Of a stretch of 24,297 nucleotides of DNA, positions 5,170 to 14,521 are shown piece after piece. The notes beneath the pieces are model-generated. The model did no database searches. It saw only the letters and a program-made list of their open reading frames with translations, and was not told the origin of the DNA. Position 1 is the first letter of the stretch, and every line of letters begins with the position of its first letter. The stretch spans positions 5,518 through 29,814 of IMG/VR virus record IMGVR_UViG_3300030389_002376. One strand, 5' to 3'. The stretch comes from a virus. The translations under genes were made by a program, and so were the position numbers.

Positions 5170-5703
5170 ATGGCAAATACTACATTTGATGGTCCGGTAC
5201 GATCACGTGCTGGATTCCAATCAATAGGACCAGGATCAACTGTTGCGTTGACTTTAGCTACTAATTTAACTGTAGCAGATCACGCAGGCAGAATCTGTAC
5301 TATGGATCCAGCTGGAACACCTACAGCTATCACTTTACCATCAATCATTGGTGGTGCTGACGGAGCATCTGCAGGACCAGGAAGAGATCCAAACAACCGA
5401 AGCACAGTTGGTACAACTTTTGAAATTATTTTCATTGATGAGTTCACTGGAACAATTTCAACTGATGGAACTGACAAGTTTGTGGGTGCGGTTATGATTG
5501 GTGTTAATGATGGTTCGAAAAAAGCTTTCGTACCTTCAGCAGCAAATGACATTGTAAACTTAAACGGAGAAGCTGGAACTGCTACTACAGGTGGTTTAAT
5601 TGGTTCAAGAATTAAGTTTACTGCAACTGCAGAAAACACTTACATGGTTGAAGGTTTATTAATTGGTGCAGGCTCAATCGCTACACCTTTTAGTGGATCA
5701 TAA
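5170..5703 (+). CDS. Virion structural protein candidate, beta-rich
   Basis: The protein is 177 residues beginning MANTTFDGPVRSRAGFQSIG. The opening ANTTF(N/D)GPVRS is a signature I recall from many marine phage structural proteins, variously described as decoration or fibre-like. The remainder is rich in Gly, Thr, Ala, Ile and Val with no catalytic motif and looks like a beta-sandwich. AGGAGG (5156-5161) gives a strong start. A long leader upstream and a terminator directly downstream make this a nearly self-contained transcription and translation unit. That is what one expects of a protein needed in large or carefully set amounts. Confidence 0.7.
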   Translation: MANTTFDGPVRSRAGFQSIGPGSTVALTLATNLTVADHAGRICTMDPAGTPTAITLPSIIGGADGASAGPGRDPNNRSTVGTTFEIIFIDEFTGTISTDGTDKFVGAVMIGVNDGSKKAFVPSAANDIVNLNGEAGTATTGGLIGSRIKFTATAENTYMVEGLLIGAGSIATPFSGS

Positions 5704-9678: not shown

Positions 9679-9706
9679 AGAGTTTGACACAAACTCTAAT
9701 TTTTAG
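9679..9706 (+). terminator. Intrinsic terminator overlapping a promoter
   Basis: AGAGTTT (9679-9685) pairs perfectly with AAACTCT (9691-9697) around GACAC, followed by AATTTTTAG. The stem begins directly after the stop codon of the Trp-Gly repeat gene. Only two of seven pairs are G-C, so it may be leaky. The loop and left arm contain the -35 box of the promoter at 9684-9712. Confidence 0.6.
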
Positions 9707-9712
9707 TAAAAT
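9684..9712 (+). promoter_or_regulatory. Sigma70-like promoter before the fibre genes
   Basis: TTGACA (9684-9689, perfect) and TAAAAT (9707-9712, 5/6) are separated by the ideal 17 bases and lie in a 57-base non-coding gap. Transcription would start near 9719, shortly before the ATG at 9736. It would drive the genes at 9736, 10441 and 11037. It is the best forward promoter in the window. Confidence 0.7.
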
Positions 9713-9735
9713 TAACACAAATAGGAATTTAAATT

Positions 9736-10437
9736 ATGGCAAACTCGACATCAGCTAATTTAAAACTGACAGTACAAGCAACCGGTGAAAACTCGGGAAC
9801 TTGGGGTCAAATTACAAATACAAACTTATTAATTTTAGAACAAGCTATTGGTGGTTTTACAACTTTTAACGTAACAAACGCTAATAGAGCTTTAACTTTC
9901 ACAAATGGTGCCGTATCAAATGGTAAAAATGATGTTATTAAATTAACAGGTACACTAGCAGGAAATTTAAACGTAACTATTCCAAACTCAATTGAAAAAA
10001 CTTATCAAGTTCAAGATGCTTGTGATCATGCAGGAAATACATTAACTTTTAAAACTGCATCTGGAACAGGCGTAGCTTTATGTGAAGGAAATAATTACAC
10101 ATTATATTCTGACGGAACTAATGTTGTAAAACTTCATGAGCAAAGAAACTGGAGAGTAGTTTCAGCAGCAGAAACAGTTCAAGCTGGTGCTCAACTTTTA
10201 GTAAATACAAATGGTGGAGCAGTAACGATTACACTTCCAGCATCACCTTCAACAGGTGATGAGGTTTCATTTGTAGATCAAGGTTATGATTTTGATAGTA
10301 ACGCATTGACTGTTGGAAGAAATGGATCTAATATAGCTAACTCAGCAGCTGATTTAGTAGTCAATACTCAAGGTGCTGGTTTCTGTTTAGTTTTTTCAGG
10401 AGACGCTACAACAGGTTGGACATTTAAGGAGAAATAG
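9736..10437 (+). CDS. Tail fibre-like virion protein
   Basis: The protein is 233 residues. The N-terminal part (MANSTSANLKLTVQATGENSG, then TWGQITNTNLLILEQAIGG) is a recurrent start among marine phage fibre and appendage proteins. Two similar beta-rich halves follow. In the second, QLLVNTNGGAVTITLPASPSTGDEVSFVDQ and the final SGDATTGWTFKEK are the characteristic parts. No enzyme motif is present. It comes first in the transcript from the promoter at 9684-9712 and is followed immediately by a tail-collar protein. An appendage or receptor-contact role is likely. An AGGA-type site lies at about 9722-9726. Confidence 0.75.
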   Translation: MANSTSANLKLTVQATGENSGTWGQITNTNLLILEQAIGGFTTFNVTNANRALTFTNGAVSNGKNDVIKLTGTLAGNLNVTIPNSIEKTYQVQDACDHAGNTLTFKTASGTGVALCEGNNYTLYSDGTNVVKLHEQRNWRVVSAAETVQAGAQLLVNTNGGAVTITLPASPSTGDEVSFVDQGYDFDSNALTVGRNGSNIANSAADLVVNTQGAGFCLVFSGDATTGWTFKEK

Positions 10438-10440
10438 AAT

Positions 10441-11028
10441 ATGGCAAATTACGAAGCAACAAGATACGATTTTTCAGGAGCAAATCTTACTGGTATCGAG
10501 GGAATTCCTACGGCTACTATTGTGCCGTGGTCTTCTTCTTCAGTGCCAACAGGTTTCTTAGAGTGTAATGGTGCAAACGTTTCAAGATCTACTTACTCTG
10601 CATTGTTTGCAATCATAGGTACAACTTACGGAGCTGGAGATGGATCTTCAACATTTACTTTACCTGATCTTCAAGATAACGTTGCAATGGGTAAATCTGG
10701 AACTAAAGCTTTAGCATCAACTGGTGGAGCAAATACGGTAGCCGCTTCAGGTACAGTAGGTGGTTCAACAGCTAACGCAACTTTAACAACTGCACAACTT
10801 GCATCTCACAGTCACGCTATGCAACCAACTAACTGGGGTAGTCACCACCCGAACCAAGGTTTTGGAGCAGGTTATACTCAAAATACTTCAGCTAGACCAC
10901 AAACTAGAAACACGACTAGCACAGGTTCTGGTACTGGTCACTCGCATAACATGAGTGCAACATTTACAGGTAGTGCAACTTCGGTAGTACAACCGTTTTT
11001 AACAATTATTTATATTATTAAGACGTAG
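10441..11028 (+). CDS. Phage tail collar domain protein
   Basis: The protein is 195 residues. Residues about 22-80 form a tail collar domain: GIPTATIVPW, then GFLECNGANVSRSTYSALFAIIGTTYGAGDGSSTFTLPDL, the usual GxGDGxxTFxLPDL signature. The rest has His pairs, HSH at 123-125 and 167-169 and HH at 135-136, and ends in VQPFLTIIYIIKT, as in T4 gp12 / Mdp-type proteins. In T4 gp12 and the L-shaped fibre family such His residues bind metal ions along a trimer. The protein is probably a trimeric tail tip or short fibre that touches the receptor. The ribosome-binding site (AAGGAG at 10427-10432) is inside the end of the previous gene. Confidence 0.85.
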   Translation: MANYEATRYDFSGANLTGIEGIPTATIVPWSSSSVPTGFLECNGANVSRSTYSALFAIIGTTYGAGDGSSTFTLPDLQDNVAMGKSGTKALASTGGANTVAASGTVGGSTANATLTTAQLASHSHAMQPTNWGSHHPNQGFGAGYTQNTSARPQTRNTTSTGSGTGHSHNMSATFTGSATSVVQPFLTIIYIIKT

Positions 11029-11036
11029 GAGAAAAG

Positions 11037-11378
11037 ATGGCAACAAACGCAACATGGACAATAGTATTTGATGATAAGATGATCATTAAACAAAGTGAAG
11101 GAATCGGATATACAATTGATGATGATACTTTTTGGAATCAATCACAATTTTCTAATATCTGGGCTATTCAATACGGAACTTCTAATTCTTCTGATGAAGT
11201 AGAACACAGAGATGAAACTCCTCATTGTAGTTATGCAGATGCAAATTTAGGAGATATTGGTCAATTTATAAGCAGATGGGACTCAGCGCATTTAGAACAA
11301 TTACAAATTGATTGGGACGAAGATCCTAGAGACGAATCTGAAAAAGGCCCTAGACCTACATCATACTCATCTCAATAA
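11037..11378 (+). CDS. Conserved acidic protein after the tail genes
   Basis: The protein is 113 residues beginning MATNATWTIVFDDKMIIKQSEG. It is acidic and Trp-containing, with FWNQSQFSNIWAIQYG in the middle and a run of ISRWDSAHLEQLQIDWDEDPRDESEKGP. I recall the family from marine phage contigs, always next to tail-collar genes, with no known role. A small acidic protein after a fibre gene could be a fibre chaperone (inference only). Its last 12 bases overlap the end of the reverse-strand oxygenase gene. A TAGGAG site precedes the start. Confidence 0.75.
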   Translation: MATNATWTIVFDDKMIIKQSEGIGYTIDDDTFWNQSQFSNIWAIQYGTSNSSDEVEHRDETPHCSYADANLGDIGQFISRWDSAHLEQLQIDWDEDPRDESEKGPRPTSYSSQ

Positions 11379-11963
11379 AAGCCAAGAAGTTAAAATATAT
11401 TTTTCACCAGATAATGGTGAGTTTCCTCTATGCACGTATGGAAATGCTGCTGGCCAAATAACTATTCTACCAGTTTTAGGTTTAACTCTTTTTGAAAAAT
11501 GTAAAAATTCTGTTTCACCACCTTCTTCAACATCATTTAGATAAATAGTATAAACAAAAGCTCTAGATTCATTATCAAAACCTGAACCATGTTCTAGATG
11601 CCAGACGTGATATCCTTCTGTAGGTAAAGTTTTTTGAATTTTTACTTCAGTATAAAAAAATTTTTCTTGATTATAACCTGCACCAGCTCCTGTATTTTTT
11701 TTATAATGTTGCCATGCCATATCAAAATTATGTAATAAAGGTTTAATATTTTCCCACCAAACTTTTAAATTTCTTGGTCCAGCAAAATACTGTTGATCTT
11801 GTTTTTCTGTGATTGGTGAATTTTCAAATTCTATTCTATTCATAGTATTTTTAAACTTATCTTGATCTTCATAAAAGTTAATGGTGTTATTACATTCTTC
11901 TGGTGTAATGTATCCATCATATACACCTATGAAATTATTTATATTTACAGTTCTTTCAGACAT
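11367..11963 (-). CDS. 2OG-Fe(II) oxygenase, prolyl 4-hydroxylase-like
   Basis: The protein is 198 residues on the reverse strand. The catalytic part is clear: YHVWHLEHGSG (118-128), the core YTIYLNDVEEGGETEF (138-153), then KPKTGRIVIWPAAFPYVHRGNSP (161-183) with SGEKYILTSWL near the end. The family needs His-x-Asp/Glu ... His for iron and Arg/Lys for 2-oxoglutarate. Here H122-x-E124, H178 and K188 fit. Glu in place of the usual Asp is worth noting. The enzyme should hydroxylate a substrate using O2 and 2-oxoglutarate. The substrate is unknown (protein side chain, sugar or base). AGAGGA precedes the ATG. Its gene follows another oxygenase gene on the same strand, and its 3' end overlaps the convergent gene by 12 bases. 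Confidence 0.87.
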   Translation of the reverse strand: MSERTVNINNFIGVYDGYITPEECNNTINFYEDQDKFKNTMNRIEFENSPITEKQDQQYFAGPRNLKVWWENIKPLLHNFDMAWQHYKKNTGAGAGYNQEKFFYTEVKIQKTLPTEGYHVWHLEHGSGFDNESRAFVYTIYLNDVEEGGETEFLHFSKRVKPKTGRIVIWPAAFPYVHRGNSPLSGEKYILTSWLLLR

Positions 11964-11976
11964 GTTTTAATTCCTC

Positions 11977-12516
11977 TTATACGTTTAATGTCATATAACT
12001 TACAGATATTCTCCAATAAGGTATTTTTTTTATTTCTTGTGATTGATGTCTTTTAGTAGAATCAAATAGTACAAAATCTCCAGGTGAATATTTAAATATT
12101 TCGCCTTCAATATTTAATTCACCTCCCCAATCTTCAGCCCATTGAGGTGTTAAAAATCCCACAATACTATGATGTGAGGGAGCTTTTCCAGTAGCTGTAT
12201 CAACGTGAAATTCTGTATAGTGATTATCATTTTGAGCGTTTAATGAGATGCGTTGTATTTTTCTAGCTAATTTAAAATTGTGTTGTTCACTTAATCCTTG
12301 ATTTATTCTATCATATAAACAATTAAAATATCCAATCCAATAAGGGTCATTATATAATACTTCACCATTTTCTAAAAAAGTTACACCTGGAAAAGCTCCT
12401 CTTGGTTTTCCTGGTTCAGAGGCTCTATTAAGATTCCACATATTTTGATTAATGATTCCCTCATAAAGTTCAAAAGAATCTTGTAGACTTAAAACGTTTT
12501 TTATTACCTTTATCAT
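11977..12516 (-). CDS. 2OG-Fe(II) oxygenase, second copy
   Basis: The protein is 179 residues on the reverse strand. The iron triad reads EFHVDTATG (102-110; H104, D106) and H157 (STKRHQSQ), and R169 in PYWRISVSYM would bind 2-oxoglutarate. Between them lie SIVGFLTPQWAEDWGGELNI and YSPGDFVLFDSTKRH, the normal core of this fold. It is only loosely similar to the neighbour at 11367-11963, so the two probably have different substrates or were acquired separately. It lies first in the transcript from the promoter at 12582-12555 and is separated from the second gene by 13 bases. It has no strong ribosome-binding site. Substrate unknown. Confidence 0.87.
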   Translation of the reverse strand: MIKVIKNVLSLQDSFELYEGIINQNMWNLNRASEPGKPRGAFPGVTFLENGEVLYNDPYWIGYFNCLYDRINQGLSEQHNFKLARKIQRISLNAQNDNHYTEFHVDTATGKAPSHHSIVGFLTPQWAEDWGGELNIEGEIFKYSPGDFVLFDSTKRHQSQEIKKIPYWRISVSYMTLNV

Positions 12517-12554
12517 TTTACGATTTCATTCTTTTTAAAATTAATATATAAGAT

Positions 12555-12582
12555 ATTATATGCTACAAAAATTAAATTTCAA
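12555..12582 (-). promoter_or_regulatory. Reverse-strand sigma70-like promoter for the oxygenase pair
   Basis: Reading on the reverse strand, TTGAAA (12582 to 12577, 5/6) is followed after 16 bases by TATAAT (12560 to 12555, 6/6). Transcription would start near 12548 and give a leader of about 30 bases before the ATG at 12516. The promoter sits over the start of the forward nozzle gene, so RNA polymerases heading both ways meet here. Confidence 0.65.
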
Positions 12583-14521
12583 GCCCGGATTTAACAAGAT
12601 GGTCACAGAATCGGGAGCAGAGTCCCAATGGGTCGACGGAGATTTTGTTAGATTTAGATATGGACTACCAGAAAAAATAGGTGGTTGGAATCAATTAAGT
12701 GTTGCTGGAGAAACTTTACCAGGAGTTGCAAGGGCTCAACATTCTTGGTCATCTTTAGCTGGTGAAAAATATGCAGCTATAGGAACATCACAGGGTTTAT
12801 TTTTATATTACAGTGAACAATTTTTTGATATCTCTCCACTTGATACAGCCATAACTGGTTGTACGATTTCTACAACTAACGGATCAACAACGGTAACTAT
12901 ACATAAAGGTTCGCATGGTTTATTAGTTGGAAGATATATTACCTTATCATCAGTGACAGTGACAGGAGCATCAGATTTCACAGCATCAGAATTAGAAAAG
13001 GCTTATGAAATTTTAACAGTAGCAACAGACAGTTTTACAATCCAAGCCTCACGTGCTGAAGGTGGATCGGGTATGACAGCGGCCGGAGCTGCAACAGTTA
13101 ATCCATACGTTATTGTTGGACCTACTGACCAAACAGCAGGTTATGGTTGGGGAACATCTTCTTGGGGAGCTGAAACATGGGGAACAGAAAGATCTACGAG
13201 TTCTGTAATTCTAGATCCAGGAAACTGGAGTTTAGATAATTTTGGAGAAGTACTAGTTGCAACTATTAGAGATGGAAAAACTTTTACATGGAATGCTGGA
13301 GCATCAAGTCCAAGAGGAATCAGAGCTTCACAAACAACAACTAATTTTGTAACAACAGCTAATCCAACAGCATCAAGATTAACACAAGTATCAGACAGGG
13401 ATAGACATCTATTTCATTTTGGAACAGAAACAACTATTGGTGATCCAACAACACAAGATCCGATGTTTATTAGATTCTCAAATCAAGAGGATTTAAATAC
13501 ATACGCACCAACGGCAACAAACACTGCGGGTACGTTTAGATTAGATAAAGGAAATAAAATAGTTGGAGCTGTATCTGGTAAGGATTATACTTTAGTTTTA
13601 ACAGATACATCTGCTTATGTAATTCAATTCGTTGGTCCGCCATTTACATTTAGTGTTAGACAGGTTGGTTCAAATTGTGGATTGATGGGTCAACATGCAT
13701 TAAGTTATTCTGATGGTAAGGTGTTTTGGATGTCAGGCCAAGGTGGATTTTTTGTATTTGATGGTACAGTAAAATCATTACCATGTCTTGTTGAGGATTT
13801 TGTATTCACAACAGACGGAGATAATTTAGGTATAAATTTTAATGCTAGTGATATTGTTTTTGCAAATCACAATACTCTTTATGGTGAAGTAAATTGGTTT
13901 TATGCAAAAGATGGATCTGATCAGATTGATCGTTGCGTGACTTATAATTATGGAGAGAACGTTTGGACTACCTCATCATTAGCAAGAACAACATATGGTG
14001 ATGTTGGAGTTTTTGATACACCAAAGGCAACTGAATATAATAAAACAGGATTACCTGTATTTCCTGATATATTAGGAATTACAAATACTCATGGGGCATC
14101 TATATATTATGCTCATGAGGTTGGCACAGATCAGGTCAATAGTTCAGGAACAACTTCAATTAATGCATTTATACAGTCTGGAGATTTTGATATTACACAA
14201 AGACGAAGTCCTTTAGGTCAATCAACAGGGTTGGCTGATTTTAGAGGAGATGGTGAGTTTTTTATGTCTGTCAAAAGATTTATACCAGATTTTAAAGTTC
14301 TTACAGGTAATTCAAAAATTACATTACTATTAAATGATTACCCAAATAATACAGCCGCAGGCTCACCACTTGGTCCCTTTACAATTACATCATCTACTGA
14401 TAAGATAGATACTAGAGCAAGAGGAAGACTTGTTGCTCTTAAGATAGAGAATGATGCTGTAGGTGAAACTTGGAGATATGGCACTCTAAGACTTGATGCA
14501 CAACCAGATGGTAGAAGATAA
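12560..14521 (+). CDS. P22 gp10-like tail nozzle / DNA stabilisation protein
   Basis: The protein is 653 residues. The opening MLQKLNFKPGFNKMVTESGAESQWVDGDFVRFRYGLPEKIGGW (1-43) is the signature of the P22 gp10-like packaged-DNA stabilisation family. Beta-propeller-like repeats follow, with segments such as DRHLFHFGTE, DYTLVLTDTSAYVIQFVGPP, YSDGKVFWMSGQGGFFVFDG and GEVNWFYAKDG. The protein would plug the short tail and hold the DNA, attached below the adaptor ring. A GWGTSSWGAETWG motif (196-208) matches that of the fibre candidate at 8602. No clear ribosome-binding site precedes the ATG, which also overlaps the -10 of the reverse promoter. The conserved N-terminus fixes the start. Confidence 0.85.
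   Translation: MLQKLNFKPGFNKMVTESGAESQWVDGDFVRFRYGLPEKIGGWNQLSVAGETLPGVARAQHSWSSLAGEKYAAIGTSQGLFLYYSEQFFDISPLDTAITGCTISTTNGSTTVTIHKGSHGLLVGRYITLSSVTVTGASDFTASELEKAYEILTVATDSFTIQASRAEGGSGMTAAGAATVNPYVIVGPTDQTAGYGWGTSSWGAETWGTERSTSSVILDPGNWSLDNFGEVLVATIRDGKTFTWNAGASSPRGIRASQTTTNFVTTANPTASRLTQVSDRDRHLFHFGTETTIGDPTTQDPMFIRFSNQEDLNTYAPTATNTAGTFRLDKGNKIVGAVSGKDYTLVLTDTSAYVIQFVGPPFTFSVRQVGSNCGLMGQHALSYSDGKVFWMSGQGGFFVFDGTVKSLPCLVEDFVFTTDGDNLGINFNASDIVFANHNTLYGEVNWFYAKDGSDQIDRCVTYNYGENVWTTSSLARTTYGDVGVFDTPKATEYNKTGLPVFPDILGITNTHGASIYYAHEVGTDQVNSSGTTSINAFIQSGDFDITQRRSPLGQSTGLADFRGDGEFFMSVKRFIPDFKVLTGNSKITLLLNDYPNNTAAGSPLGPFTITSSTDKIDTRARGRLVALKIENDAVGETWRYGTLRLDAQPDGRR

Follow-up and report, generated by a model that had tools for sequence, protein, structure and literature searches.

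Why do two putative 2OG-Fe(II) oxygenase genes read backwards within the structural module of a phage stretch whose other genes all read forwards, and are they an occasional insert or a standing part of the genome? The stretch analysed here (the window) comprises 24,297 nucleotides of a 29.8 kb virus record (IMG/VR record IMGVR_UViG_3300030389_002376, positions 5,518 to 29,814). Apart from the oxygenase pair, its reverse open reading frames are nested in forward genes or overlap them. The closest isolate is Pelagibacter phage HTVC027P, whose gp75 is 78% identical to P0003 and in which the flanks match; by a structural core gene and gene order common with HTVC027P, we assign the window to the HTVC023P-type pelagiphages, phages of marine SAR11-type bacteria. 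A preliminary description, made from the window alone, had placed two reverse oxygenase genes here and let them converge on a tail-module gene with a 12-base overlap. Coordinates and strands of both genes were confirmed (Table 1), and the overlap between P0001 and P0004 was found at positions 11367-11378. The cassette is AT-richer, with a G+C content of 27-30% versus 37%, and in relatives the value is 0.269 across 116 islands versus 0.365 in P0003 homologues. No terminator-like site was found on the reverse strand between 10500 and 13500.

Table 1. Features of the reverse oxygenase locus and its flanks (positions in the window)
Feature	Position	Strand	Remarks
Tail-collar protein, forward neighbour	10441-11028	+	
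P0004, small protein, upstream flank	11037-11378	+	convergent with P0001, in relatives too
P0001	11367-11963	-	PF13640, 2.9e-10; putative 2OG-Fe(II) oxygenase, prolyl-4-hydroxylase-like; anchor gene of the array
P0002	11977-12516	-	PF13640, 1.6e-7; putative 2OG-Fe(II) oxygenase; promoter-proximal, interchangeable member of the array
Leader mini-ORF, ATG AAA TCG TAA (MKS*)	12519-12530	-	directly before the P0002 ATG
Conserved 38-bp element	12522-12559		reverse transcript's 5' leader; alternatively, in the opposite direction, possible forward promoter TTTCAT-N17-TATAAG
Predicted -10 box, TATAAT	12555-12560	-	TATAGT in most relatives; spacer 16
P0003, virion structural protein, downstream flank	12560-14521	+	phrog_3287, 5.6e-82
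Predicted -35 box, TTGAAA	12577-12582	-	within codons 6-8 of P0003

Both predicted enzymes exceeded the PF13640 gathering cut-off of 27 bits given by Pfam, with scores of 41.4 and 32.6 bits. They had been described as dissimilar, one of them with Glu in the iron-binding H-x-E position, and both statements held. Pairwise comparison of P0001 and P0002 gave no significant similarity, which rules out that both arose when a single oxygenase gene was recently duplicated. P0001 carries a His-x-Glu...His motif with a Lys 10 residues past the distal His, whereas P0002 has Asp instead, in a His-x-Asp...His...Arg motif. H122, E124, H178 and K188 are invariant in the P0001 family, as are H104, D106, H157 and R169 in that of P0002; Glu occupies the His-x-Glu position in 111 of 113 non-redundant P0001 homologues. 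P0001 is 72% identical to HTVC027P gp73, and isolated phages yielded no match to P0002. The nearest sequence and fold matches of both proteins are mostly protein prolyl hydroxylases. When the P0001 profile was compared with the PDB, the nearest sequence matches were prolyl 4-hydroxylases (P4H), and its AlphaFold model was closest to the Chlorella-virus collagen prolyl hydroxylase vCPH, a weak match (TM 0.51, E 2e-4) with a weak C-terminus. The P0002 model was closest to PolD (TM 0.67, E 1e-7) and P4H, both models being of moderate quality (pLDDT 75-78). In T4-like cyanophages, a P0001 homologue lies between the genes for the major capsid protein gp23 and gp3 (Prochlorococcus phage Syn33, L383:6977-7567; P-SSM3, L384:6989-7579). 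Homologues in cellular genomes were found at 56 loci; the single Massilia locus inspected had no informative neighbours, and the SAR11-like contigs among these loci may be phage DNA.

The site was then compared in relatives that had been retrieved through the structural gene alone and were hence not selected for oxygenases. Reverse genes were present in all 56 of these loci with both flanks, one to eight per locus, and an empty site in none, which rules out the reading as an occasional insertion. According to our own cluster assignment, which for several clusters without a Pfam hit is based on motif reading only, 180 of the 196 reverse genes in these loci belong to oxygenase families. The P0001 family occurs in every one of the 56 islands and the P0002 family in four. 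A total of 74 architectures was counted among 116 loci, many of which are closely related, so that such counts are not independent events. The constant presence of reverse genes and the number of architectures argue together for a resident, hypervariable antisense island, of which the P0001/P0002 pair is the minimal form at the short end of the array. In the sister clade around HTVC023P, this position is occupied by a forward gene, which in HTVC023P itself carries an oxygenase annotation, and the 38-bp element is lacking.

The content of the island is not restricted to one enzyme family. Among 55 representative island proteins, 17 matched PF13640 and nine PF13759; further families are methyltransferase, carbamoyltransferase and tryptophan halogenase, together with weak matches to sulfotransferase and ParB_N. 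The tryptophan halogenase gene (L192:3602-5017; PF04820, 1.6e-90) is located in the oxygenase array of a pelagiphage-like contig. A 109-aa protein with the weak ParB_N match (E 0.0015) often opens the array, its start codon being that of the conserved ATGAAAG (L225:817-1143, L228, L182, L070). In a 14-member cluster, DUF6817 is fused to a 2OG oxygenase domain (L009:1256-2107, L105:7715-8488). Two to three tandem forward copies of a tail-collar gene (P0005-like) were observed between the P0004 homologue and the island in L036, L039, L040, L042, L069 and similar loci.

How might such an island be expressed? The promoter TTGAAA-N16-TATAAT proposed for the pair at 12582-12555 is present at that place. 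A single-sequence scan found 13 promoter-like sites where 12.8 were expected in 3 kb and, being at chance level, was rejected as proof. Sites matching at least 11 of 12 positions numbered five in the window versus 1.0 expected, and the probability that one falls by chance within the correct 100 nt of the correct strand is about 0.002. Since a lone consensus match is weak evidence, the case for the promoter depends on its conservation. In relatives, a conserved block extends from about 37 nt upstream of the ATG of the structural gene through its codon 8. Codons 7-8, which coincide with the -35 box, read TTC-AAG in 97 of 100 relatives, although in this gene TTC accounts for 8% of the Phe codons and AAG for 19% of the Lys codons. 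Of its 28 conserved Phe columns, codon 7 alone is fixed as TTC and the other 27 favour TTT. Codons 7 and 8 underwent two changes each on the tree versus a median of 12, whereas codons 9, 10, 12 and 13 vary freely. TTGAAA was found in 105 of 124 loci, and 102 of the 124 have a -10 box 16 nt from the -35 box (TATAGT in 64, TATAAT in 38). In L041, L152 and L156, in which the neighbouring gene is forward, the peptide MLQKLNFK is kept with the codons TTT-AAA, and the -10 box and the leader are lost; on the tree, L041 and L152/L156 are two separate lineages. Exceptions are a structural-gene allele, MALKKVDFAP (VDFA), that has no TTGAAA with the island still present, and L026, in which the promoter is retained and a forward oxygenase gene is inserted between promoter and island. 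Taken together, the comparison demonstrates a predicted reverse promoter that is conserved at the DNA level across relatives, with its -35 box within codons of the structural gene. According to the part of the HTVC027P transcriptome paper considered here, this phage encodes no RNA polymerase of its own (PMC12753301), with which sigma70-type promoters are consistent.

The proposal that the pair is a moron set into a structural operon thus stands in part. The genes are antisense, AT-richer and, as far as the conserved promoter indicates, independently promoted, but they are not an occasional insert. The survey of related contigs gave a divided answer as well: their reverse orientation is resident in relatives, which speaks against the proposal, and the promoter is conserved, which speaks for it.

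The 38-bp element scored 38.2 bits in the window and 45.5 bits in HTVC027P, with the runner-up in either genome below 3. As this is the only such site in HTVC027P and in the window, a genome-wide late promoter was ruled out. The leader ends in AATGAAAG, and the ATG in it opens a mini-ORF of few codons. In 46 of 55 unique leaders, the stop of this mini-ORF lies within a few bases of the ATG of the first gene, compared with a mean of 29.7 and a maximum of 37 in 500 shuffles; about ten loci have the leader ATG as the start codon of the first gene. At the other end of the array, in 39 of 70 cases and involving 12 families, a gene begins 19 nt within the P0001-family gene, a start that gives unrelated proteins similar, MDDVKI-like N-termini. 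These arrangements suggest that modules may be swapped at conserved ends while translational coupling is kept.

Other readings of the conserved stretch have to be weighed against a reverse promoter with its leader. The 38-bp element could be the forward promoter of P0003, giving a near-leaderless mRNA and needed because the island interrupts the operon, with the reverse genes having no dedicated promoter. The fixed distance of the element to the P0003 ATG, the 17-nt spacing, the lack of an obvious ribosome-binding site and the absence of the element where neighbouring genes are forward would fit, but this reading does not explain why TTC-AAG is fixed at 18-24 nt of the gene, why TATA[AG]T is matched or why the mini-ORF is coupled to the reverse genes, and we regard it as quite improbable. 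Overlapping and mutually exclusive promoters, by which oxygenase and downstream tail expression would compete, are a somewhat less remote but still unlikely solution: the reverse boxes and plausible forward ones lie inside the same conserved 60 bp, although the forward hexamers are poor (TTTCAT) and the element could simply be a leader. The lowest probability is given to a recombination linker for cassette exchange that resembles a promoter incidentally. Such a linker would account for very different cassettes with the same boundary and for the shared docking junction at the end of the P0001 gene, but predicts neither a codon fixation that ends at the -35 hexamer nor the loss of this fixation in two lineages upon a change of orientation. 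Candidate forward promoters were seen elsewhere. TTGACA-N17-TAAAAT at 9684-9735, upstream of the tail gene at 9736, overlaps the inverted repeat AGAGTTTG/CAAACTCT and is conserved in HTVC027P and relatives; it is likely to be the start of the tail transcript. In the sister clade (L249-L326), a different conserved sequence, TATAAAATGnTGTAAAAT, precedes the P0003 homologue by 45 nt and is possibly a forward promoter.

What the enzymes act on, and when, may be narrowed from the published HTVC027P transcriptome text and from the matches described above. Early expression had been considered for the pair, but the text of the HTVC027P transcriptome paper, in the part considered here, places gp73 outside the early class: all early genes are said there to be of unknown function, gp73 is named an oxygenase, and two extra expression clusters hold only gp30, gp33 and gp34 (PMC12753301). 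If the authors used these terms strictly, gp73 falls into the middle or late class, and we consider this the probable assignment. Protein hydroxylation is favoured by the prolyl-hydroxylase matches and by the position of the cyanophage homologues between gp23 and gp3. Our best guess, with low confidence, is that the enzymes hydroxylate proteins, most likely those of the virion, during the middle or late phase of infection. No collagen-like repeat longer than four triplets was found in the window, and a collagen-like tail substrate with a long G-x-y repeat was thereby ruled out within it. Independently expressed morons often modify the host for superinfection exclusion or takeover. The enzymes might accordingly modify the host envelope, EF-Tu or metabolism, not virion proteins. 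EF-Tu is the target of a bacterial P4H (PDB 4iw3 and 5v7y are among the matches), and iron uptake is up during HTVC027P infection in the part of the transcriptome paper considered (PMC12753301). The genomic neighbours, which are tail-collar genes here and gp23 and gp3 in cyanophages, point towards the virion, though not decisively, so that we treat host modification as a real but minority possibility.

Comparison across relatives shows, on the level of gene order and DNA, that one fixed site lies between two structural genes and that the gene families in it turn over strongly. It also shows that the conserved leader holds a mini-ORF abutting the first gene, and that a docking junction where the P0001-family gene has its 3' end is shared. 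The reading that we prefer, with a probability of about 75%, is that the pair represents the smallest version of an antisense enzyme island that is resident and hypervariable in HTVC027P-like pelagiphages, which is reverse-promoted and into which enzymes tailoring proteins or surface molecules are swapped. From the conserved promoter, the host RNA polymerase would transcribe the array independently of the tail operon. Recombination at the conserved leader and at the end of the P0001 gene would bring in new enzyme genes, which would stay translated through coupling. Their products may hydroxylate proteins or surface molecules made late in infection, or tailor them in another way; the phage's own adhesin or tail proteins are the likeliest substrates. 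Turnover of the repertoire may be driven by the host-phage arms race. A bolder version, which we consider speculative and rather unlikely, sees a locus for chemical diversification: an antisense array driven by recombination, with a fixed promoter, a mini-ORF docking leader and an anchor gene, would let pelagiphages exchange enzymes that tailor proteins or glycans (hydroxylases, halogenase, carbamoyl-, methyl- and perhaps sulfotransferases), rewriting adhesin or host surface chemistry, and the overlapping promoter would act as a switch against tail expression.

The fixed antisense slot, the conserved promoter and the fast-changing oxygenases point to a strong and repeated selective use of these enzymes in phages that are counted among the most abundant pelagiphages (PMC9599517, in the part considered). 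If tail or host-surface proteins were indeed modified, phage-host recognition would be altered by chemistry, not by sequence. The array is directly testable in the cultured HTVC027P, for which directional RNA-seq has been published (PMC12753301; PRJNA1253180).

The oxygenase richness of HTVC023P-type phages is already known, as eight non-orthologous 2OG genes near each other have been described in the lineage (PMC9599517); the part of that account considered here does not include a fixed antisense site, a promoter, a mini-ORF leader or the turnover of the array. Likewise, the portions of the literature consulted contained no account of a fixed antisense site with a conserved promoter in structural-gene codons, a mini-ORF leader and a docking junction. 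With phage morons the island shares its own (here predicted) promoter, an odd base composition and a position within a structural operon, but it has no empty site and no reverse terminator was found, and it is lineage-wide, multi-gene and hypervariable; we rate it as a moron-like variable island. The hyperplastic region that lies between g15 and g18 of cyanomyoviruses also places variable genes within the structural module of marine phages, but holds other genes and is not described as antisense with a conserved promoter in the part of the publication considered (PMC2984593). The P4H-type hydroxylases (vCPH of PBCV-1, Bacillus P4H) and PolD are the best sequence or fold matches of P0001 and P0002, at an identity of about 15-20% and with the difference that P0001 has Glu in its iron motif. 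The nearest counterpart is gp72-gp74 of HTVC027P (MN698241), which has three reverse genes instead of two and a promoter-proximal gene of another oxygenase-like family, but shares with the window the site, the orientation, the P0001 homologue, the 38-bp element and the promoter.
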